Assembly (NCBI GenBank): GCA_004297825.1
Contig: SCSX01000012.1
Coordinates: 1-64,000, forward strand
DNA: 64,000 nt
Reading direction: 5' to 3'
Source of the DNA: Spirochaetota bacterium
Lineage (GTDB): Bacteria; Spirochaetota; UBA4802; UBA5368
Positions 2,048 to 34,190 of this stretch are shown here, one piece after another. A model generated the notes under the pieces. It saw only the letters and a list, made by a program, of their open reading frames with translations, was not told the origin of the DNA and ran no database searches. The position numbers were made by a program, and so were the translations under genes. The first letter of the stretch is position 1. Every line of letters starts with the position of its first letter.

Positions 2048-2467
2048 ATGGAATTCTGGAAAGACTCGCAGGAAGCCGTAACCGCGATTAAGAAGATGTG
2101 GGAAGAAATTGGCAATGATGCAGAACTCCGCGCGGCTGCGGGAAAGGTTAATCAGCTTATTGTATTCGATTATACCGAAAGCGGACCCGGCTGTGCCGTA
2201 TGGGTGGACTGCCGCAATGGCGGTTTTACTGTTGGAGCCGGGATACCCGAAGGCAATCCCGACCTGACCATGAGCCTTTCCGCCGACGATGCGCACCGCT
2301 CCTGGTCGGATAAGCTCAATCCGGTCATGGCCATAACGCGCAAGAAGATACGCGTTAAGGGTTCTGCAACAGGGCTCCTCAAGCTGGTTCCAAAACTTAA
2401 AAAAGTTGCGGTTATTTACAGGCAGGTGCTCACCGATCTGGGGATGGCCGATAAAATTATGAAATAG
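2048..2467 (+). CDS. SCP2-like sterol/lipid-transfer domain protein
   Basis: A 139-residue soluble protein that fits a single SCP2 (sterol carrier protein 2) domain. It has the typical pattern of an NPDLTMSLSADDA segment followed by a basic KKIRVKGSATGLLKL segment and a C-terminal helix. SCP2 domains bind hydrophobic ligands such as acyl-CoAs or sterols. It lies 22 bases after the Fe-ADH with a purine-rich ribosome site and precedes the Mop gene. A role as carrier or presenter of a hydrophobic alcohol or aldehyde is inferred from this placement. Assignment rests on pattern recognition of a weakly conserved fold. Confidence 0.7.
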   Translation: MEFWKDSQEAVTAIKKMWEEIGNDAELRAAAGKVNQLIVFDYTESGPGCAVWVDCRNGGFTVGAGIPEGNPDLTMSLSADDAHRSWSDKLNPVMAITRKKIRVKGSATGLLKLVPKLKKVAVIYRQVLTDLGMADKIMK

Positions 2468-18788: not shown

Positions 18789-19100
18789 TCACCCTCCAGT
18801 GACGATCGAAAAGAAAAGTACGCTATCGCTTTGGGTAAGCTTCGCCCTTGTAAAATCTTTGGGGGGAAGCACTTCGCCGTTACGCTGCATGACGAACCAT
18901 TTTCTATTATGATGTATCTGCGTATACAGCGAAGGGGAGATAATCCCCGCGTCGCGTGACGAGCACAACAGGGCGGCGGGGCTGTCGCCCTCGGCCATTG
19001 TAACCCTTGTCACGACGCTCACGTATTCTCCCGCGATAAAGCCGATGATCTTCATCTCGACCTCGATTTCAGCGGGCGGGTCCTTGTGCCGAAGATTCAT
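18789..19100 (-). CDS. MoaD/ThiS-like protein paired with AOR 3
   Basis: A 103-residue protein ending in FFSIVTGG, which fits the Gly-Gly tail of beta-grasp sulfur carriers. The middle is divergent, so recognition leans on the tail and on context: it overlaps AOR 3 by 4 bases (ATGA). It would be the third such protein next to an AOR here. A different AOR accessory protein is possible. Confidence 0.6.
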   Translation of the reverse strand: MNLRHKDPPAEIEVEMKIIGFIAGEYVSVVTRVTMAEGDSPAALLCSSRDAGIISPSLYTQIHHNRKWFVMQRNGEVLPPKDFTRAKLTQSDSVLFFSIVTGG

Positions 19101-21097
19101 CGCGAACCGATCTCGTCGGCGATCTCATGAAGCCCCAGCTCGCGGAGTTTCCTCCCGCTGGGAGCGCCGGTTTCCCTATCCCAGCCCATTTCACGGAGAA
19201 ATCCGTCCTGGAGCGTCCCGACGTCGAGCGTGATTCCCTTCATGGGACCCGCGTCCAGTGGCGGATTCCCGGCGGCTCGGGCGGGCAGGGCGAAATCCCG
19301 ACGCGGAACGATCCCGTGCTTTACGTTGAACGCCTGACGTATGTTCTGGATGCGTTCCCCGATCGAGAGGTACTCCTCGGGAGAAAACGACCACCCGGTC
19401 GCGGCGTTCGCGTACGCGGGGATGTCCAGTTTTCCCCCCATCTGTACGCCGAAGAGACATATGCCTGCACCGTTGATGAACTGCATATAGCTGCTTCCCG
19501 CGGCCAGAAGCACGTCCTTGTCTTTTGTATTTCTGTACTTGCTTTTCACTGTGAAGAGCGTGGGCGTCTTCGGGAGCTTTTTAAATATGCGGTGAAGCGC
19601 GAACATTTCTATCCATTGATAGCCGTGATTCGTATGCCTGCCCGGCGTGGGTTCCAGCGAATAGGACACCGCGAAACCCGGGTCAAACCGGGTATCGTGC
19701 ATGGGCAGTTCCTGTCCGCCCGAATGAATCGCGAAACGTTCGCTTCCCCTGCCGATGCGCTCCGCCGCCTTCCGTGCCCCGTCCGCCAGCACGTCGCCGA
19801 TCCCTTCACGCCGCGCCATCTTCTCGAGAAGGGCGAGCGCCGCCCCGGCGTTGCCCCACGTGAGATCTAACCCCTCCGTATCCGCCTTCGTGAGAATGCC
19901 GTGCTCGTAGCATTCCATCGCAAAGGCTATCGTGCCGCCGGCGGAGATAGTATCGAAGCCCACCCGATTGCAAAATTCGTTCAGCCGATAAATGGCGTTC
20001 ATGTCGCTGTTCAGCTGGAGCGCGCCGAAAGCGCAGCAGGTTTCGTATTCGGGCTTGTGGGTCTCGGGAAGTCCTGCTTCATCCACGCGCAGGATGCTGC
20101 CGCACCCCAGCGGGCAATTGTAGCAATGGTATTTCTTCACCTGGTGGTCGATGATTCGCTGCGGATTAAGCATATTTGCGTGAGTGGCAATGGGGAAGTC
20201 CCGAAACCCGGCCCCTCTCCAGTTCATGACCGGCGAGTCTCCGTTTTCGGAGGAGAGTACGTTGGCGGAGATGGTACCAAAGCGCCCCATGGCCATCTTA
20301 ATGAGATCGCCGCTCTGCGCCATGGCGATCGGCGACACCCGCATGAATCTCCCCATGAAACTCAGCCCTCCGGATGAAATGATATTGGGGCCGCTCTTGA
20401 GCCATTTCAAAAACCTGGTGTTCAGGTCCTTTACGCGCTCAGGGTCATGTACTTCGATCTTCATTTTCCCGGCCACGGCGACCGCCTTGAGGTTCTTCGA
20501 TCCCATGACCGCCCCGAGACCGGAACGGGCAGCATATCGCCCACGATCGTTCGATATGCCGGTGATGAGCGATTTCTTTTCGGCCGCCGGGCCGATAACG
20601 GCGACGCGAACACCCGGAACGGCCAATTCCGCCGTAATTTTCTTTTCAGCTTCGATGGCGTCAGCTCCCCAAAGGTGGGACGCGTCCCTGAGCTCCGCCT
20701 TACCGTCAATGACGGTCAGATAGACCGGACCGGGCGAGATGCCGCGTATAAGAATCCCGTCATAACCGCAGCGCTTGATCGCGGGGGAGAAGGTGCCGCC
20801 GCAGTTGGCGTCGCCCCATCCTCCCGTGAGCGGGGATTTTCCCGCGACCATCCATCGGCCGCTGAACCATGTGCCCGTCCCGGTGAGCATACCCGACATG
20901 AACGCCAGTATATTGTCCGGTCCCAGAGGGTCCGCCCCCGCGGGAATGCGCCGGTAGAGTAACCACGCTGCGAGACCGATCCCGGAGGTTACGCTACGGT
21001 ACACCTCGTCCGGAATAATTTCTTCGTCGATTGAACCATTAGTTAGATCAACGTTCAGTATTTTTCCCATGTATGCCTTTTTCATATATTCCATCAT
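19097..21097 (-). CDS. Aldehyde:ferredoxin oxidoreductase family protein (AOR 3)
   Basis: A 666-residue AOR family enzyme with Cys325, Cys328 and Cys332 in YHCYNCPLGCG and the pterin motifs KSPLTGGWGDANCGG and GSKNLKAVAV. The C-terminus carries the family-typical RQAFNVKHGI. Three Met codons at the start (21097, 21094, 21085) compete; AAAAGGAT lies closest to the first two. It is the fourth gene of the glycyl radical enzyme operon, after a 96-base gap, and probably oxidises the aldehyde released upstream in the pathway. Identification as a benzoyl-CoA-reductase (BamB) type cannot be excluded. Confidence 0.88.
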   Translation of the reverse strand: MMEYMKKAYMGKILNVDLTNGSIDEEIIPDEVYRSVTSGIGLAAWLLYRRIPAGADPLGPDNILAFMSGMLTGTGTWFSGRWMVAGKSPLTGGWGDANCGGTFSPAIKRCGYDGILIRGISPGPVYLTVIDGKAELRDASHLWGADAIEAEKKITAELAVPGVRVAVIGPAAEKKSLITGISNDRGRYAARSGLGAVMGSKNLKAVAVAGKMKIEVHDPERVKDLNTRFLKWLKSGPNIISSGGLSFMGRFMRVSPIAMAQSGDLIKMAMGRFGTISANVLSSENGDSPVMNWRGAGFRDFPIATHANMLNPQRIIDHQVKKYHCYNCPLGCGSILRVDEAGLPETHKPEYETCCAFGALQLNSDMNAIYRLNEFCNRVGFDTISAGGTIAFAMECYEHGILTKADTEGLDLTWGNAGAALALLEKMARREGIGDVLADGARKAAERIGRGSERFAIHSGGQELPMHDTRFDPGFAVSYSLEPTPGRHTNHGYQWIEMFALHRIFKKLPKTPTLFTVKSKYRNTKDKDVLLAAGSSYMQFINGAGICLFGVQMGGKLDIPAYANAATGWSFSPEEYLSIGERIQNIRQAFNVKHGIVPRRDFALPARAAGNPPLDAGPMKGITLDVGTLQDGFLREMGWDRETGAPSGRKLRELGLHEIADEIGSR

Positions 21098-21193: not shown

Positions 21194-22834
21194 TTATTTC
21201 AATATTGTTCCTCCTCGACCGGGACCATCCAAAATTCCGTTTTTCAGGACCTGTATGCCGTTCATAAATACCGCTTCAATGCCTGTCGGCTTCACGTTGC
21301 CGCGTTCTCTGGTGTTGTTGTCCCTGATTTTTGACGGATCGAACACCACGATGTCTGCGGCCTTTTTTTCCTGAAGTACGCCCCTGTCATGCAACCGCAT
21401 GCGTTTGGCCGCAGCGCCGGTCATTTTGCAAACCGCCTCTTCAATGGAGATGCATTTTTCCTCCCTGGCAATCTGCAGAAAGCGGGGAAAGCACCCATAT
21501 GCGGCCGAGTTCTGATGCTCGGCCGGTTCTACCCAAGCATCTGTCATAAAAAGCGAGGCTCGGTGTTTCATCAGCTTCTTTATTATCTCATGCGTGCTGT
21601 ATTTGTGGACAATCATGGCGGCCCTGCCGCCGCTTTTTTCCGAAAAGTCAATAAAGTTATCGATCTCGCTCATGCCCCGTTCGCGGGCGATGTCGTTCAT
21701 GAACATGCCGTTGAAGCGATCCAGGTCCTCGTTATTCGAGCGGATCACCTGCATGTCCTCGAAGCCGATGCCCAATATCGTCTTGAGTATTTTCAGCTCG
21801 AACTTGAGGCGCATCAAAGCCTTCCGGCTACGATAGTTTTTTTCCGTGTTCGAAATAAACCACGACGGCATGAAGCTATTGATTAATGGCGCACCATGGC
21901 TATATGCAAAGGTATCGAATTGCACATCGATGCCGTCGTCTATTGCACGGTCTATCATTTCCAGGGCGTCGTCGCAGGAGGACCATGTCTTCGTGCCCAC
22001 GAAAATAAGGTGGGATAACTGCAAGCGGACTCCCGTGCGCCGTGCCAGCCTGAGAATCTCCTTCAGTGCGATGAGATTATGAGGCGTTCCGAACGGTATC
22101 AAGGGATACGCTGCGGACACGGCTGAGTATGCACGGCTATGCACTGCCAGCATCTTGTCGTGCTTTTTCACAAGCTTCGCAACATTCTCCAGTTCATCAC
22201 TGGGTGCAAACTGCCCCGGCTCGTATTGAAGTCCGAGAGAGACGCCCTTCGCTCCCTCGTCCATCGCTGCTTCCATAAGAGACAGCATCATTTTTTTTTC
22301 ATCTGATGAGAGAGGAGAAGGATCCAGACCCTTTATAGACGCGCGTATGCTGCCATGGCCGGCGAACATGGCAAGATTGTGGGATATCCCCGCGCTCGAA
22401 AGCGATTGAAAAAACTCCGCCATCGATCGCCACGGAAGTCTATCGATCCCCCTGAAGCCTTCCTTGAAGAGGTTGTCGACCACGGCCTTTTCGTTCGAGG
22501 TGCTCATTTCTTTGTTAAGGGCCGCAGGTGAAAAACCGCAGTTGCCGCCCACAAAAGAAGTGATTCCCTGTTCAATGAAAGGGCTGGTGAAACGCTCTCC
22601 GTTTTTCATTGCCACGAACCAGTCAAGATGGGAATGGCAGTCAATGAATCCCGGCGCAATGGCAAGCCCGCTGCAGTCGATCACGCGCCCTTTGTCGTTG
22701 GTTATTCCATAAATTACCTTTTCGATTGATGGTCCGTTTACGAGCACGCTCCCCCTCACTCCCCTGTTTCCGAGACCATCGATAATGATTCCGTCCTTTA
22801 ACAACGTATACTCACCTTTTTTAGCCGATTTCAT
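21194..22834 (-). CDS. N-acyl-D-amino-acid deacylase-like amidohydrolase (copy 1)
   Basis: A 546-residue amidohydrolase-superfamily enzyme of the D-aminoacylase/dihydroorotase branch. It shows PGFIDCHSHLDWF (metal His), the GGNCGF cysteine typical of D-aminoacylases, LSHLIFVG, and MTDAWVEP near the C-terminal catalytic Asp. The family hydrolyses N-acyl or cyclic amide bonds. It starts 2 bases after the activase, with AAGGAG as ribosome site, so it belongs to the glycyl radical enzyme operon. A close paralogue lies at 32432. Confidence 0.88.
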   Translation of the reverse strand: MKSAKKGEYTLLKDGIIIDGLGNRGVRGSVLVNGPSIEKVIYGITNDKGRVIDCSGLAIAPGFIDCHSHLDWFVAMKNGERFTSPFIEQGITSFVGGNCGFSPAALNKEMSTSNEKAVVDNLFKEGFRGIDRLPWRSMAEFFQSLSSAGISHNLAMFAGHGSIRASIKGLDPSPLSSDEKKMMLSLMEAAMDEGAKGVSLGLQYEPGQFAPSDELENVAKLVKKHDKMLAVHSRAYSAVSAAYPLIPFGTPHNLIALKEILRLARRTGVRLQLSHLIFVGTKTWSSCDDALEMIDRAIDDGIDVQFDTFAYSHGAPLINSFMPSWFISNTEKNYRSRKALMRLKFELKILKTILGIGFEDMQVIRSNNEDLDRFNGMFMNDIARERGMSEIDNFIDFSEKSGGRAAMIVHKYSTHEIIKKLMKHRASLFMTDAWVEPAEHQNSAAYGCFPRFLQIAREEKCISIEEAVCKMTGAAAKRMRLHDRGVLQEKKAADIVVFDPSKIRDNNTRERGNVKPTGIEAVFMNGIQVLKNGILDGPGRGGTILK

Positions 22835-22836
22835 TA

Positions 22837-23763
22837 TTAACTCCTTGTCTCATATGAGTTGTTCAAACACTTAAATATGCATTTACATGCTTCCACGACT
22901 GCGGGCGGCAACCATTCTCGCAAGGGACTATCTTCCATAAATCTATCGGAAATCCCGAGGGAAAAACATTTCTCATGCCAGGTGGGATTATTAGGCAGTA
23001 GCCGGATTTCCTTTACCTGATAGGACTTGAGGAAACGAGCGATTGCAGCGAGGTTCTCCTCCGTATCCGTAATGCCGGGAATGAGGGGCGTTCGTGGTAC
23101 TATCTCGAAGCCGCCCTGGATGGAAAGCTCATGGAGCCTAATGAAATTTTCCAGGATGACCGCGTTGTCGACGCCGCAGTAGCGCTTATGCTGCTTCGGG
23201 TTAAAGAGCTTGATGTCCATGTATATCATGTTAATATGAGGGAGAACGGCTTCCCTGAACTCATCGAAATTAAAATAACCGCATGTTTCTATAAGCGTAT
23301 GAACGCCGGAATTTTTCAATGCCATGGCAAGCCCCGAGAGAAAATCCATGTGCAACGTGGGCTCCCCCCCTGAGAACGTAACTCCTCCTCCCGATGAATC
23401 TAAAAACGGCTTGTCTTTGAGCACTTTTTCGATTATCTCCTCCCGCGACATTTCGCTTCCAATCCGGCTGAGTGCGACGGCCGGGCACTCCCCAACACAG
23501 GCGAAGCAGCGCGTACATCTGTTCCTGTCGACAAAAAAGGGGTTATCCCGGGAAAGAGCGCCGGATGGGCACTTCTCGATGCAGCTATCGCAGGCGATGC
23601 ATTTCTGCCGATCAAAAGATATCTCGCCAAAGGGACGTTTGCTCTCCGGATTGTGACACCACGCACAGGAGAGGGGGCACCCCTTGAAGAAGACAACAGA
23701 CCGGATACCCGGTCCGTCGTCCAGTGAATTTCCCTTGATGTCGATGATCAGCGGAGTTCTCAT
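22837..23763 (-). CDS. Glycyl radical enzyme activase (radical SAM)
   Basis: A 308-residue radical SAM protein that installs the glycyl radical on its partner. CPLSCAWC gives the SAM-cluster CxxxCxxC. Two further [4Fe-4S] ferredoxin motifs follow (CIACDSCIEKCP and CTRCFACVGECP, about residues 54-100), as in activases of dehydratase or decarboxylase-type glycyl radical enzymes but not of pyruvate formate-lyase. SGGEPTLH is the SAM-binding GGE motif. It lies 5 bases downstream of its target. Confidence 0.93.
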   Translation of the reverse strand: MRTPLIIDIKGNSLDDGPGIRSVVFFKGCPLSCAWCHNPESKRPFGEISFDRQKCIACDSCIEKCPSGALSRDNPFFVDRNRCTRCFACVGECPAVALSRIGSEMSREEIIEKVLKDKPFLDSSGGGVTFSGGEPTLHMDFLSGLAMALKNSGVHTLIETCGYFNFDEFREAVLPHINMIYMDIKLFNPKQHKRYCGVDNAVILENFIRLHELSIQGGFEIVPRTPLIPGITDTEENLAAIARFLKSYQVKEIRLLPNNPTWHEKCFSLGISDRFMEDSPLREWLPPAVVEACKCIFKCLNNSYETRS

Positions 23764-23768
23764 AATGC

Positions 23769-26700
23769 TTATATCCTGTATTCGGCCCGACGGATGACTT
23801 CAAGCTGGAGATCACGCTGGAGCTTGGTGAAATAGGCCACATACCCCGAGATTCTCACCATGAGATCCTGATATAATTCGGGATTTGCCAGTGCGTCTTT
23901 CAGCGTATCCGTCGTGACCACGTTGAACTGCGTCTGCATGCCCCCCATATCGAAATACGCCTTCGCGTAATGCGACATGGTATCGACTATCTGCTCGTGA
24001 GTGTCCGAAGATCCGGGAACAAGCTTTACGTTGAAGGCTATATTGTTGTCCAGGTTCCTGGGGTCCAACCGCGCCACATCGCGCAGGTTGTCCAGCAGGT
24101 TGACCGAAGCGCTCGGATGCGGCGTAAGCCCCGGGGTAAAGGGCTCGCCGGCGAGCCTTCCGGAGGGGAGCGCTCCGGTAACGCGGCCGTATACCGCATG
24201 GTTCGCCATAGACCACCATCCGCTGGTGTAAATTCCGCCTCGATAATTCCTTTGACTGTTGTAGTAATTGTGCACGAATCCGGTAACCCGGTTGGCCATC
24301 TCTACGGCCTCATCACTACCTGAACCAAACCGCGGGACTCTTGATTTCACAATCGCGTGCAATTTCCGATTAGAGTTAAAATTATCATCAATTGCCTCTT
24401 TCAATTCCTTAAAAGAAACGGAAGTTTCATCGAAAACCAGCTTTTTAATTGACATGAGAGAATCTACAACATCCGCAAGTCCGATCATGGAAACGCCGGT
24501 TGAGTTGTATTGTGCACCTCCCCTGGTGACGCCTCTGCCTTTTTGAATGCAGTTATCAACCAGAACCGATAGAAGTGGTGCCGGTTGATGTTTCTGATAC
24601 ACTTCACCGAGCTGGTTGTTTCCGATAACGGACAGATCAAGTAGAAACCTGCATTGTTCAGCAAAGGCGTCCCAAAATTGTTCAAAGGTGCTGAAATCTC
24701 CGTTTTCAATCCTGCCTGTTTTTGGCCCAATATCCCAATTCATGAGAGGATGTTTTCCGTTGTTCATTGCCATTTCGAGCGGTGCAACGAGATTGATTTC
24801 AAGGCTTGAGGTTGCACTTGAATGCTTTCCGGGTATAGATGGTTCCACACATCCGTTTGCCACCCAGTCCCTTACATCTTCAAGCCGCCAGCCATGATTT
24901 ACCAGCGCAGTGATAACAGCATCATCTCCATGAATGCACGGCGTCGCGCCGGTGATATAGTTCACGTCGCACGCGCGCTTTAAAAAATGTACGCTGTTCT
25001 TATCGTGCTTATACCGGACATGCATGTTGGGATCGTTCAATCCAAGAAGCTCGGTTACCTTAAGAATGACATAGGTCATGTCGTTAACGGCGTCTTCGCC
25101 TTCGGCGGTGACGCCACCAAGCGTGATGGTCACATTGGGAGCAGATCCTGAGTTCTGCCAGTTGCCGATATCGGGTATGAGAAGCTGGTGGCTGGCTTCC
25201 TTCATAAACAGGCATCCTAAAAGATCGATGACGTGTTTTATGTACTCCTCCCTTTCCTTACCCGTCATGAGCTTTTCGATATCGGATATGAAGTAAGGCT
25301 GCAGCATTTGGTCGAGCCTGCCGAACATCGGGCCGTCATCGGAGTTCTCCATATCGAGACAGAGATGCATGATAGCAAGCGACTGAACCGCCTCATCCAT
25401 GGTCGCGGCGGGATTTTCCGGCACTTTTAAAAGTATTTTTTCCATGTGCTCAAGCTCGGCCTTTCTTTGAGGCTTTTGTTCTGCCATGGCCTCCTGCGCC
25501 GCCTGACCGGCGAGGTTACGAGCGTATATATTAGCCGCCTCAAGGCTGATAATCATCGCATTCAAAGTATTTTTCTTTTCATCATCCGCGTCATGATCGC
25601 TTTTCAATTCATCCTTGATCATCTTTATCAATCCGCGTGTGCCGTGTTTCAAAATTTTATCGTGCCCAGGCGTGATTTCCGACATCGATACGGTCTTCCA
25701 GTAATAAATGGAAAAAAACCTGTCATGGACGCGGACAGGCAGCGCATTACCTGTCTCCTTTCGCCATAATTCGTGAATGTTCTTTCGCGCCCAGAATGGG
25801 AACACGTGCCTGTGTAAAATCCGGATGGTTTCTTCGCTGATGTCATACGGCATGAGTTCGCGGTTTGCGAAGGATCTGAGTTCCCCCCAACTATAAAGCC
25901 CCACGGAAAATGGATGGCAGATACAGCCGGATACGGGGTCCGTGGTGAATGTTCCGGCGAGAAGATCACCTTCTCTGATGATAGGCTTTCTTCTTTCGAG
26001 AATATATTTCAGGCTCTTCGCCTTACGGAGATTCGGGTCCCAGGGTTTGCCATTATTATCAACTTCATAACCGTGTTTAAGGTGGAAGTCGGTAATGAGT
26101 TTTCCGTACTCATGGCAGACCACCGCTTCTTTTTTCCTGTTAAAATACTCGGTGCGAAAACGTTCGAGCCGCGGGAAATCCTCAAGCCCGTAATCAGCCA
26201 GGTGCGGATCTTCGAGATGAAGGACCCCGGGATCCACCCTGCTCCCGCGGATACGTGAAATTCTTCTGACGGATCGCTCATTTCTGCAAAGAGTCGAGTC
26301 TTTAACGTCCATCCCCGCGATTTTATTCGCTTCCCTGTGTTTATTGATCTGCCTGTCCACTGATTTCTGCTGGTCCTTCCCGATAACCAGATTCACGTAG
26401 TAATTAAACAACCCGACAAGCATGAGGTTTCCTTCTGTCCTCACTCTGCCTGTGAGAATCATCCGGTATGCCTCATCAGGGCTCGCGTCCATTTGTTCAA
26501 TAAGATCCTTTGGGGTGGAAAAAATAAGGGTGCAATCGACATTATCCGGTATGTCGTCAAGAACGCGGACTTTCCCGTCATTGAAAATGATGGCTCCTTT
26601 CGCGGAATCATCATCAGCTTTCATTCCGATGGAAAGGTTTATCCATCCCCGGGTCCCCATCATCTCACACCGCAGAGCGGAATTCGTGTTAAACATTGAC

Positions 26701-26834
26701 GCGATGTATCCGAGAAAGCCGCTAAGAATCATCTGCTGTTTATGAAGCAGTTTCCCGGTGAGAAATCGTGATGAGCTCGTCAGAAGATTAGCGTATCCGC
26801 GTACTCGATCATGTAGTGAAGATTGAACTTGCAT
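23769..26834 (-). CDS. Glycyl radical enzyme with N-terminal SCP2-like domain
   Basis: About 1021 residues, roughly 200 longer than usual family members. Residues 37-157 look like an SCP2 domain (GKVRVLDDIPDNVDCTLIFS, then AYRMILTGRVRTEGNLML). The pyruvate-formate-lyase-like domain starts near residue 200. The thiyl cysteine is Cys662 and the general-base Glu is Glu664 in NGCVEP, the signature of dehydratase, C-N/C-S lyase and decarboxylase members. Gly997 in VRISGYVAYF is the radical site. The reading frame extends to 26903, but a -24/-12 promoter lies at 26870-26885, so the true start must be the ATG at 26834, preceded by GGGGGG. The substrate is unknown. Confidence 0.92.
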   Translation of the reverse strand: MQVQSSLHDRVRGYANLLTSSSRFLTGKLLHKQQMILSGFLGYIASMFNTNSALRCEMMGTRGWINLSIGMKADDDSAKGAIIFNDGKVRVLDDIPDNVDCTLIFSTPKDLIEQMDASPDEAYRMILTGRVRTEGNLMLVGLFNYYVNLVIGKDQQKSVDRQINKHREANKIAGMDVKDSTLCRNERSVRRISRIRGSRVDPGVLHLEDPHLADYGLEDFPRLERFRTEYFNRKKEAVVCHEYGKLITDFHLKHGYEVDNNGKPWDPNLRKAKSLKYILERRKPIIREGDLLAGTFTTDPVSGCICHPFSVGLYSWGELRSFANRELMPYDISEETIRILHRHVFPFWARKNIHELWRKETGNALPVRVHDRFFSIYYWKTVSMSEITPGHDKILKHGTRGLIKMIKDELKSDHDADDEKKNTLNAMIISLEAANIYARNLAGQAAQEAMAEQKPQRKAELEHMEKILLKVPENPAATMDEAVQSLAIMHLCLDMENSDDGPMFGRLDQMLQPYFISDIEKLMTGKEREEYIKHVIDLLGCLFMKEASHQLLIPDIGNWQNSGSAPNVTITLGGVTAEGEDAVNDMTYVILKVTELLGLNDPNMHVRYKHDKNSVHFLKRACDVNYITGATPCIHGDDAVITALVNHGWRLEDVRDWVANGCVEPSIPGKHSSATSSLEINLVAPLEMAMNNGKHPLMNWDIGPKTGRIENGDFSTFEQFWDAFAEQCRFLLDLSVIGNNQLGEVYQKHQPAPLLSVLVDNCIQKGRGVTRGGAQYNSTGVSMIGLADVVDSLMSIKKLVFDETSVSFKELKEAIDDNFNSNRKLHAIVKSRVPRFGSGSDEAVEMANRVTGFVHNYYNSQRNYRGGIYTSGWWSMANHAVYGRVTGALPSGRLAGEPFTPGLTPHPSASVNLLDNLRDVARLDPRNLDNNIAFNVKLVPGSSDTHEQIVDTMSHYAKAYFDMGGMQTQFNVVTTDTLKDALANPELYQDLMVRISGYVAYFTKLQRDLQLEVIRRAEYRI

Positions 26835-26869
26835 GATTACCCCCCATAATGCATTAATAAACATACAGA

Positions 26870-26885
26870 GGCAATAATCGTGCCA
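26870..26885 (-). promoter_or_regulatory. Sigma54 (-24/-12) promoter of the glycyl radical enzyme operon
   Basis: The minus strand reads TGGCAC-GATTA-TTGCC, matching TGGCAC-N5-TTGC exactly, with ten bases between GG and GC. Transcription would start near 26859, giving a leader of about 25 bases before the ATG at 26834. The divergent neighbour is a sigma54 activator. Confidence 0.88.
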
Positions 26886-27023
26886 ATTTGAATCATTGCA
26901 CAATTATTGTTCGAATTAAGTGATTAAACAGCCAACAATTCTCATTGTAGTTAATGGGAATAGTCCAAGGTGAGAGAATAAAGTAAATAGGGACTTGACA
27001 ATTCAAGCAATAATAGCTAATGA

Positions 27024-27049
27024 TTCAACATAATTGCAACATTGTTGAA
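27024..27049. promoter_or_regulatory. Candidate upstream activator site (inverted repeat)
   Basis: TTCAACA (27024-27030) and TGTTGAA (27043-27049) form a perfect 7-bp inverted repeat, with a nested CAAC-ATT-GTTG (27037-27047). It lies about 150 bases upstream of the -24/-12 promoter, a normal enhancer distance, and close to the regulator's own start, which would allow autoregulation. Confidence 0.45.
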
Positions 27050-27101
27050 ACATAATAAGTGATATATTTGACTTAAACACAGAAAATTAAAAGGGATACC
27101 C

Positions 27102-28865
27102 TTGAAACTTGATAACGAAATCATAAATCTGTTGAACACGCTGAACATTGGCTTTATCCATTTGGACATGGATTTCGGCATACTTGAGGTAAACGAAAAA
27201 ATAATCGAATGGTATGGCGGCACACGCAGAGATTTAGTGGGACATAACTGCAGGGAGTTCTTCACTCCTGAAGACTTTAACCGTTTGAGGACTATTGATC
27301 TTGAATACCTCCATAAAGGATTTCAACACTATCAATACGAATTCGAACTTCCCACAAGCAAAGGAGGGCGCACCCCGTTTCTCATCAATCTGTCGGTGAA
27401 CAAGGACGCGGGAGGAGCCCCTGACTCAACCAATGTTTTATTAACGGACATCAGCGAACAGAAACGCATGCAGGAGGAGCTGACGAGGACAAATATCGCG
27501 CTGGCCGCAAGTCAAGAAGCGCTGGGAAACGAGAAGAAAATGATCGAAGCGATTCTTTTCGGCATTGGCGACTGTGTTACCATTTTCGATCATGAGGGAA
27601 ACCTTCTACTGAGCAACCCGATGGGAAAGGAAATCAGGGGGGACCGTATCACGCCACTCATTGACCTTGATTCGACTATTGAAAAGATCATTAACTTTGA
27701 AATTTCCGGAGAGCACCGCCAGTTCGCGGGACGAATAGAGAATATCCATGACAATTTTGGGCGGGTAAAAGCCTATGCAGAGATACTCAAAGAAATAACC
27801 GACCAGATCAAGCTGGAAGAGCGGGAAAACGAACTTCGACTAATCAAGCGTAGGATGCAGCGGGGCGAGATCGAATCAGAAATGATTGGGGTAAGCCCTG
27901 CAATGGGGAAAGTGTTCGATCTTATCCTGCGGTGCGCCGAAGTGGATTCATCCATTTTGATCTTAGGTGAAACGGGAGTGGGGAAAGAGCTCGCCGCCCG
28001 GGCAATGCATACCCGCAGCAAGCGAAAGGGAAGCAAGTTTGTTGCCGTAAACTGCGGCTCAATACCGGAGGCCCTACTGGAGTCAGAGCTTTTCGGCCAT
28101 GAGAAAGGAGCGTTCACGGGCGCGGTGACTTCTCGAATTGGCCTGTTCAGGGAGGCCGATGGAGGAACGCTGTTTCTTGACGAGGTCGGGGACCTTAACG
28201 TCGCACTACAGGTAAAACTCCTGAGGGCTCTTCAGGAAAAGGAAATACGGCCGGTTGGCGGCAACCGCACGTTTCCGATAAACGTACGCATTATTTCCGC
28301 CACAAATCGTAACCTGACGGATCTTATTTCCAGGGGACTTTTCCGCGAGGACCTGTATTACCGTATCGCGGTGATTCCCATTGTCATTCCGCCCCTAAGG
28401 GAGCGCCGCGAGGATATTCTATATCTTGCCGATCACTTCATAAAAAAGCACTGTAAGAAGGACGAAAAAACGTGTAAGCGGCTTGAAGCCGATGCCCGAC
28501 AGCTCCTGTTGAGCCATCAGTGGCCGGGCAATATCCGCGAACTGGAAAATGCGATTGAGTACGCCATCGCGATGAGCGCCGATACCATTATTAAACCGAA
28601 TGACTTTCCGCTCCAGATTATCGCAAGCCGGACTTTACCGGAAAGCTCCAATGGGACTATTCAAACTGCTCTAACACCACTTCATCAAGCGCCCTCTCTG
28701 GATCGATTTGAAATAGCACATCTCAGATCTTGGGAACAGGATGATCGGAGGCTAATTGCAGAGACACTGGAAAATTGTAGGGGAAACAGGAAAGAGGCGG
28801 CCGAAAAGCTGTCAATATCCCGGAGCACACTCTGGAGAAAGATAAAGACGTATCATATTACATGA
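27102..28865 (+). CDS. PAS-domain sigma54-dependent transcriptional activator
   Basis: A 587-residue bacterial enhancer-binding protein. It has an N-terminal PAS domain (about 10-118), a coiled-coil linker, a second PAS-like region (about 150-235) and the AAA+ domain. Walker A is GETGVGKE (289-296), the sigma54-contact loop is GAFTGA (336-341) and Walker B is near LFLDEVGD. The C-terminal Fis-type HTH reads GNRKEAAEKLSISRSTLWRK. There is no phosphoreceiver domain, so a ligand or redox signal sensed by the PAS domains is likely. The start is TTG with AAGGGAT upstream. It is divergent from the glycyl radical operon and almost certainly controls it. Confidence 0.92.
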   Translation: MKLDNEIINLLNTLNIGFIHLDMDFGILEVNEKIIEWYGGTRRDLVGHNCREFFTPEDFNRLRTIDLEYLHKGFQHYQYEFELPTSKGGRTPFLINLSVNKDAGGAPDSTNVLLTDISEQKRMQEELTRTNIALAASQEALGNEKKMIEAILFGIGDCVTIFDHEGNLLLSNPMGKEIRGDRITPLIDLDSTIEKIINFEISGEHRQFAGRIENIHDNFGRVKAYAEILKEITDQIKLEERENELRLIKRRMQRGEIESEMIGVSPAMGKVFDLILRCAEVDSSILILGETGVGKELAARAMHTRSKRKGSKFVAVNCGSIPEALLESELFGHEKGAFTGAVTSRIGLFREADGGTLFLDEVGDLNVALQVKLLRALQEKEIRPVGGNRTFPINVRIISATNRNLTDLISRGLFREDLYYRIAVIPIVIPPLRERREDILYLADHFIKKHCKKDEKTCKRLEADARQLLLSHQWPGNIRELENAIEYAIAMSADTIIKPNDFPLQIIASRTLPESSNGTIQTALTPLHQAPSLDRFEIAHLRSWEQDDRRLIAETLENCRGNRKEAAEKLSISRSTLWRKIKTYHIT

Positions 28866-32431: not shown

Positions 32432-34033
32432 TTACCGTATCACCATCCCCGCCCTTATCTTCGGAAGCGCCTTCCCCCTTTTCACGACGACCTCCCCGTT
32501 CATGACGACCGTCTCGATCCCGGTTGGCCGCGCGCCCGATGCCTCGGGGGTCGTGTTGTCCCGTATCGTGTGCGGATCGAACACGGTGATGTCCGCGGCA
32601 TACCCTTTTTTCAAGAGGCCCCGGTCTTTGATCTTCATGCGCGCGGCGTTCTTCCCGGTCATGCGGTGCACCGTGTCCTCGATCGTGAGGATGTTTTCGT
32701 CGCGGGCGAGCTCCAGGAAACGCGGGAAGCACCCGAACGCAGCGGGGTTCTGGAGTCCCGACGGCTCGACCCAGGCGTCGGTCATGAAGTGCGAGGCGCG
32801 ATGCTTCATGAGCGCGCGGACGATGTGCGGGTTGCTGTACTTGTAGATGAGCATCCGTGCGGTGCTGTCGCTCCTGTGCGCGATGTCGATGTAGTTTTCG
32901 AAGTCGGTCATTGTGCGCGCGCGGGCGATGTCGCGCAGGAACATGCCGTTGTATCGGTCCAGATCCGGGTGGTTCGCCGATGCAAGCTGCATGTCGGCCA
33001 TGTTGAAGCCCAGGAGCGCGAAAGAGATCTTCATGAGGAGCTTCGTCTTCTTTAAAAGCTTCTTGTCCGTGTAGGCCGCGGGAACCTGCGCCATGAACCA
33101 TTCGGGGAGGATCCCCGTGATGACCGTCGCGCCACAGTGGTGCGCGTAGGTGTCGAAACACACGTCAACCCCGTCGTCGATCGCGCGGTCGATGAGGGCG
33201 AGCGCCTTGTCGAGCGTCTTCCAGGTGCGCGCGCCCACGAAGATGAGATGCGAAATCTGGAGGCGCACGCCCGTCCTGCGCGCGAGGTCCAGGAATTCCC
33301 TGAGCGCGATGAGGTTGTGCGCCTCGCCGAAGGGCTTCAGGGGATAGGCCCCGGAGACCGAGGAGAACGCGCGCACGTGTACCGTGACGATGCCGTCGCG
33401 CTTCTTCACGAGTTTGGCAACCTCCTCCTGTTCGGACGCGGTCGAGAAGATGTCGGGCGCGTAACCCATTCCGAACGATACGCCCCGCGCCCCCTGTTCC
33501 ATGGATTCCTCCGCGAGCCGGAGGAGCTGTTTCATCTCGTCTCCCGTCATGTGTGAGGGATCGTAGCCTTTTATGGAGGCGCGCGTGGTCCCGTGCCCGC
33601 ACAGGTTCACCAGGTTCGCGGACATTCCCTTTTTTGTGAGGTGCGCGTAGTACTGCGCGAGCGAATCCCATTTCAATCCGGAGTGCCCTCCCTTGAACAG
33701 GTTGTTCTCGAGGAGCGCGCGGTGCGCGGTGTTTTTCTTGAATACCGCGGCGCCGAAACCGCAGTTCCCTCCCACGAAGGTGGTGATGCCCTGTTCCAGG
33801 AACGGCGTGATGTATTCGGGTTTTTCGGGCGAGGCGAGGAACCAGTCGTTGTGCGAGTGGAGGTCGATGAAGCCGGGCGCGACCGCTTTGCCCGCGCAGT
33901 CGATCGTCTCGCATTTCGCCTGTATCGCGCCCGGCGAAAGCTCCGCGATTTTTCCGCCCTTGATGAGGACACTTCCGGGGAATCCCTTCTTCCCGCTGCC
34001 GTCGATTATCAGTCCGTTCTTGAGGAGGAGCAT
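32432..34033 (-). CDS. N-acyl-D-amino-acid deacylase-like amidohydrolase (copy 2)
   Basis: 533 residues from the ATG at 34033, where the family N-terminus (MLLLKNGLIIDGSGKKG) begins; the frame runs 30 codons further without homology. It has FIDLHSHNDWF, GGNCGFGAAVF, LQISHLIFVG and MTDAWVEPSG. It is clearly related to the protein at 21194 along the whole length (shared MKHRAS, CFPRFL and NGMF blocks) but is GC-rich like the local sequence. It stands alone, away from any glycyl radical gene. Confidence 0.88.
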   Translation of the reverse strand: MLLLKNGLIIDGSGKKGFPGSVLIKGGKIAELSPGAIQAKCETIDCAGKAVAPGFIDLHSHNDWFLASPEKPEYITPFLEQGITTFVGGNCGFGAAVFKKNTAHRALLENNLFKGGHSGLKWDSLAQYYAHLTKKGMSANLVNLCGHGTTRASIKGYDPSHMTGDEMKQLLRLAEESMEQGARGVSFGMGYAPDIFSTASEQEEVAKLVKKRDGIVTVHVRAFSSVSGAYPLKPFGEAHNLIALREFLDLARRTGVRLQISHLIFVGARTWKTLDKALALIDRAIDDGVDVCFDTYAHHCGATVITGILPEWFMAQVPAAYTDKKLLKKTKLLMKISFALLGFNMADMQLASANHPDLDRYNGMFLRDIARARTMTDFENYIDIAHRSDSTARMLIYKYSNPHIVRALMKHRASHFMTDAWVEPSGLQNPAAFGCFPRFLELARDENILTIEDTVHRMTGKNAARMKIKDRGLLKKGYAADITVFDPHTIRDNTTPEASGARPTGIETVVMNGEVVVKRGKALPKIRAGMVIR

Positions 34034-34190
34034 GGGGTACCTCGCACGTGGGTTTGGTCTGCCTGCGGTGAGGGAAGCCGCATGGCATTTGTTTATTGAT
34101 GAGCGTACGCTCGTTTTTAGCAAGCGATTTTAGGGGATCTGGCGCGGGCGCCGATACGCGTATCGGCGAACGAAGGAAAGCGTGGACCGG

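Follow-up and report, generated by a model that had tools for sequence, protein, structure and literature searches.

A glycyl radical enzyme with an N-terminal SCP2-fold domain

The DNA analysed here (the window) is a stretch of 64,000 nucleotides from contig SCSX01000012.1 of a Spirochaetota bacterium. It contains at 23769..26834, on the (-) strand, a gene for a 1021-residue protein in which a glycyl radical enzyme (GRE) is preceded by a predicted SCP2-fold domain. GREs catalyse some of the hardest anaerobic reactions, mainly on small or hydrocarbon substrates. The catalytic half, delimited by Pfam and by an AlphaFold2 (AF2) model searched with Foldseek, occupies about residues 218-1021 (23772..26183, (-) strand). 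It has the hallmarks of the GRE superfamily: a PFL-like domain (Pfam E 1.1e-158, residues 222-883), a Cys loop and a glycyl radical loop, the Gly_radical match (E 2.7e-19) spanning residues 900-1003, and a radical S-adenosylmethionine (SAM) activase is encoded nearby. The original prediction had called this enzyme complete from its NGCVEP and RISGYVAYF motifs, and that reading holds. The first motif (24840..24857, (-)) is a Cys loop containing Cys662 and Glu664, which aligns with its counterparts in glycerol dehydratase and CutC; the second (23829..23855, (-)), assigned by sequence and alignment, is the glycyl radical loop with Gly997; and all three residues are invariant across the family alignments. 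The CxE arrangement in the Cys loop is the eliminase motif of GREs (PMC8473560). The AF2 model of the full protein (pLDDT 88) finds its nearest structures in glycerol and propanediol dehydratase, HypD and CutC, the top matches being eliminases.

All NCBIfam GRE equivalog models scored it far under their cut-offs, among them those for CutC (TIGR04394, 375 against 1050 bits) and HypD (NF043068, 422 against 1100 bits), and close kinship with BssA is not indicated, with identity of 20-21%, a TM lower than with the eliminases, and CxE present. By sequence alignment, the positions of His164, Ser282 and Asp447, the diol-binding residues of glycerol dehydratase 1r8w, are occupied in the window protein by Glu386, Gly501 and Ser676, so that the diol-binding His, Ser and Asp of the glycerol and propanediol dehydratases are absent at the aligned positions. 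Glu386 also stands at the position of CutC Asp216, and CutC Thr502 aligns with the invariant Thr675; the residue at the Asp216 position varies, being Gln in one relative (L056) and His in the larger of the two subclades described below. Judged from its sequence, the catalytic half is a GRE eliminase, nearest to glycerol dehydratase, with altered diol-binding residues. The CxE motif and a pocket unlike that of the diol dehydratases therefore predict a radical 1,2-elimination on an alcohol that carries a leaving group.

An SCP2 pattern had been proposed from the sequence at residues 37-157, together with the statement that known GREs lack such a domain. The gathering cut-off of Pfam SCP2 (PF02036) is 21.3 bits; the full window protein scores 16.1 bits (E 0.014, residues 79-140) and its N-terminal piece alone 19.5 bits (E 0.0012), so that the profile search of the single protein, at 16.1-20.4 bits, stays below the cut-off, whereas 15 of 76 family N-termini match at E <= 0.01 (best E 1.9e-5). 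Because the single-sequence match is inconclusive alone, a family profile, hhalign and a fold search were needed. When a profile of 76 family N-termini was compared by hhalign with one of nine SCP2-domain sequences from the window's own genome, the match was colinear over 92 columns (95% probability, P 3.7e-8). The AF2 model of residues 24-216 was confident (pLDDT 86), and its top 45 Foldseek matches in the PDB (best E 2.4e-6) consisted entirely of alkylsulfatases and SCP2-fold proteins, the latter including UbiJ, AF1534 and sterol carrier proteins; a PDB sequence search with the N-terminal profile returned SCP2 chains only, weakly (E 0.12-0.17). Profile-profile comparison and predicted fold together settle the point that the window GRE truly carries an SCP2-fold domain, at about residues 24-150 (26385..26765, (-)). 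Among the PDB matches listed, no GRE alignment starts before query residue 220, and the NCBIfam GRE models likewise lack the domain, as had been claimed of known GREs.

The helices flanking the SCP2 domain show moderate hydrophobicity (median best 17-residue Kyte-Doolittle 1.1-1.2). Transmembrane anchoring through them was considered and rejected, since most members fall short of the hydropathy it would require. Elsewhere in the window (2048-2467, (+)) lies a gene for a stand-alone SCP2 protein of 139 aa, which exceeds the Pfam cut-off, and the genome has at least nine such SCP2 domains.

The fold could also be read as a structural or docking module without cargo, serving dimerisation, activase docking or membrane placement in an enzyme that acts on some ordinary small diol or alcohol. 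UbiJ, the top fold match, is an accessory protein of ubiquinone synthesis, and the hydrophobicity of the flanking helices could signal membrane contact. This reading is nevertheless considered somewhat unlikely: the enzyme has not retained the residues with which glycerol dehydratase binds diols, and the SCP2 fusion runs throughout the clade.

Distribution and phylogeny of the fusion

The SCP2-GRE architecture recurs in about 100 homologs across several phyla, and because it is so conserved the fusion is more than chance. Among the matches in 59 related genomes, the strong ones over the full length (>= 43% identity) span the N-terminal domain, and non-fused GREs rank next, at about 33% identity and lower. 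The set retained from named genomes comprises 80 loci, in nearly all of which the N-terminus is covered; their record labels are Desulfobacterota, Spirochaetota, Actinomycetota, Chloroflexota, Bacillota and SAR324, and they include the isolate Desulfoluna limicola, the phylum labels of metagenome-assembled genomes (MAGs) being liable to error in single cases. A scan of the window's phylum (296 genomes) located the N-terminal domain of SCP2-GREs 28 times in 21 genomes, nearly always in frames of about 1000 residues, the remainder lying at or near contig ends.

In a catalytic-domain tree, quickly built and with SH-aLRT support without bootstrap, 32 SCP2-GRE members are split off by one branch (SH-aLRT 100) with a long stem and fall into two subclades, the smaller of which (9 rows) contains the window protein. 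The 19 references include HypD, CutC, HpfG, PflD, PflB, glycerol dehydratase and PFL2, with BssA, IslA and HpdB not among them; glycerol dehydratase and PFL2 were taken from PDB alignments, and HypD, CutC and others from plasmid records and relatives' genomes. The fusion is thus a trait of a whole clade outside the sampled reference GREs, not a one-off. No paper on a GRE with SCP2, a sterol carrier protein or an ether lipid that describes this family was found in the open-access literature, and the SCP2-GREs are apparently a separate, undescribed subfamily.

The window's own genome holds a second SCP2-GRE (L030, G000:C50:6535-9501), 47% identical and of the larger-subclade kind, judged by its Cys-loop and neighbouring motifs. 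At another locus (L118, 6323-16291, (+)) a single operon comprises three SCP2-GRE genes, a TetR regulator and one activase. The window's genome also encodes a long GRE (L147, G000:C89:6000-10500), a 1147-aa open frame with ~270 extra N-terminal residues and no strong NCBIfam match, comparable long frames being present in related genomes. A related genome, G015, shows a striking expansion (L150, G015:C56:500-4500, and other contigs), with 13 GRE matches at ~27% identity to residues 425-1017.

Transcription start region, operon and neighbouring genes

The GRE gene probably starts with the ATG at 26834, since a ribosome-binding site, GGGGGG (26840..26845, (-)), lies directly 5' of it and a sigma-54 (-24/-12) promoter core, TGGCACGATTATTGC (26871..26885, (-)), close upstream; the TTG at 26903, which would open a longer frame, is an unlikely start because it is located upstream of this promoter. 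The window's sigma-54 motif or TGGCAC-N5-TTG is also found 5' of the GRE in three relatives (L021, L049 and L055), and the stricter pattern has a chance expectation of 0.006 per 550 nt. Upstream of the promoter core, at 26886-27101, repeats such as TGTTTCAACA, ATGTTGCAA and ATGTTGAA are possible activator sites; similar repeats occur in L049.

The GRE gene is followed on the (-) strand by genes for a GRE-activating radical SAM enzyme with two ferredoxin-type clusters (22837..23763; TIGR02494 above cut-off), an amidohydrolase of the D-aminoacylase type (21194..22834; PF07969, nearest PDB match a D-aminoacylase), an aldehyde:ferredoxin oxidoreductase (AOR; 19097..21097; AFOR_N and AFOR_C, nearest PDB match 1aor) and a 103-aa protein ending in GG (18789..19100), which has no NCBIfam match and is MoaD/ThiS-like by its GG end and its place beside AOR. 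A sigma-54-dependent activator (PAS, AAA+ and Fis-type helix-turn-helix) is encoded divergently at 27102..28865 (+), a position kept in L021, L049 and L055. The resulting six-gene unit recurs with its order kept in L021, from another family of the same order, and in L049, a Desulfosudis MAG from another phylum; identities to the window proteins are 79-80% for the GRE, 81% for the activase, 90-93% for the amidohydrolase, 83% for AOR, 76-77% for the activator and 46-47% for the small GG-ending protein. Elsewhere the family loci often show a TetR-GRE-activase core (TetR at 54 loci, the activase cluster at 61), some also with SDR-type dehydrogenases and with up to three tandem SCP2-GRE copies.

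In the Spirochaetota sample, an amidohydrolase lies near the GRE at 3 loci against 0.14 expected (P 0.0004), or 2 (P 0.009) if two of these are counted once because they are homologous operons; the estimate is rough and was made after the operon had been seen. A second amidohydrolase in the window (32432-34123, (-)), 5.5 kb from the GRE, is 52% identical to that of the operon. A block of AOR, FGGY and acyl-CoA-ligase genes in seven related genomes was discounted as independent evidence, since it is accompanied by FliS and Maf and looks like shared synteny.

All the operon partners would be accounted for by a CutC-like C-N lyase whose substrate is an N-acylated lipid, for example an N-acylethanolamine, from which acetaldehyde would pass to AOR and the fatty amide to the amidohydrolase. 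Glu386 at the CutC Asp216 position and the invariant Thr675 at that of Thr502 fit such an enzyme, but hydrolysing the amide directly would be simpler, the amidohydrolase resembles D-aminoacylases, and the acidic residue is inconstant across the family; this proposal appears very improbable.

The AGPS and FGGY genes found near some SCP2-GREs bear on a different proposal, an anaerobic ether-lipid lyase that would abstract hydrogen from C2 of 1-O-alkylglycerols (or their phosphates) and expel the alkoxide; the products would be hydroxyacetone (phosphate) and a fatty alcohol. For this there is chemical precedent in YbiW and PflD, GREs that split the cyclic C-O ether of 1,5-anhydroglucitol-6-P next to a carbinol (PMC12441222). 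One locus (L034) holds an AGPS-family gene, an FGGY kinase and a GlpD-like gene, and FGGY and GlpD-like genes also occur in L024 and L067. However, in the Spirochaetota sample co-location of AGPS and FGGY with the GRE is not above chance (P 0.15 and 0.19), AGPS homologs are also present in members of the order that lack an SCP2-GRE, and AGPS, FGGY and GlpD-like genes are all absent from the window's operon, so that a lyase of this kind is judged quite unlikely.

Proposed function and comparison with known systems

The function favoured here, by a modest degree, is that of a GRE eliminase whose N-terminal SCP2-fold module loads a lipophilic substrate. Lipid binding by this module may be expected from the SCP2 fold and from precedent, SCP2-fold domains being present also in the alkylsulfatases among the Foldseek matches, and a lipophilic substrate is a reasonable supposition rather than a result. 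The conservation of the operon and its divergent activator in two further genomes, and the excess of amidohydrolase co-location, speak for the same function. Other points weigh against it: SCP2 folds can also act as scaffolds, no ligand was seen, the pocket residues were mapped via sequence alignment alone, and operon partners vary among subclades, most of which have only TetR, GRE and activase.

The activation, lipid binding, reaction and order of steps that follow are inferred. The neighbouring activase would form a radical on Gly997, which would in turn convert Cys662 to its thiyl radical. The SCP2 domain would grip the oily tail and present the polar end of the substrate; Cys662 would then abstract a hydrogen atom from the carbinol carbon, Glu664 would accept the hydroxyl proton, and a leaving group on the adjacent carbon (OH, OR or NR) would be expelled to yield an aldehyde or ketone. 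In the window operon AOR would take over the aldehyde and oxidise it to an acid, with reduction of ferredoxin; before or after the GRE step the amidohydrolase would cleave an amide.

The SCP2-GRE is an oxygen-sensitive enzyme of an anaerobic bacterium, and its family probably acts, in an oxygen-independent way, on oily molecules that bear a hydroxyl group. Sulfate reducers, syntrophs and Spirochaetota have members of the clade, as many as three copies occurring in one genome, and the fused domain of lipid-carrier type suggests that anaerobes break down lipids or other oily alcohols through a step as yet unassigned. As of 2021, alkylglycerol monooxygenase (AGMO) was the sole enzyme known to break alkylglycerols (PMC7911779); because it is a monooxygenase, anaerobic alkylglycerol breakdown is a question that the SCP2-GRE family could help to test. 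That the family is a widespread anaerobic counterpart of this oxygen-dependent enzyme, cleaving C-O (or C-N) bonds of membrane or ether lipids by means of a built-in lipid-holding domain, is itself unlikely.

The B12-independent glycerol and 1,2-propanediol dehydratases (1r8w and 5i2g) share with the window protein the catalytic fold (TM 0.94 and 0.91 by target length), the GCVEP Cys loop and the Gly radical loop, but identity is about 30%, the diol-binding positions are changed, and the dehydratases have no SCP2 domain. CutC (5fau) is alike in its CxE motif, in the acidic residue at the Asp216 position and in the Thr at the Thr502 position, and differs in being 27-28% identical and in lacking the SCP2 domain. 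YbiW and PflD, although GRE eliminases that set the precedent for C-O ether cleavage, act on small phosphorylated substrates and have no SCP2 domain, and PflD is distant in the tree. UbiJ and other SCP2 proteins share the fold and a colinear profile match with the N-terminal domain, which differs from them in its divergent sequence, its fusion to a GRE, and the long helix before and further helix after it. The alkylsulfatases with an SCP2-fold domain, such as SdsA1 (2cg2), act on long-chain alkyl sulfates; SdsA1 resembles the window protein as an enzyme with a fused SCP2-fold domain, but it is a zinc hydrolase of unrelated chemistry in which that domain is C-terminal.
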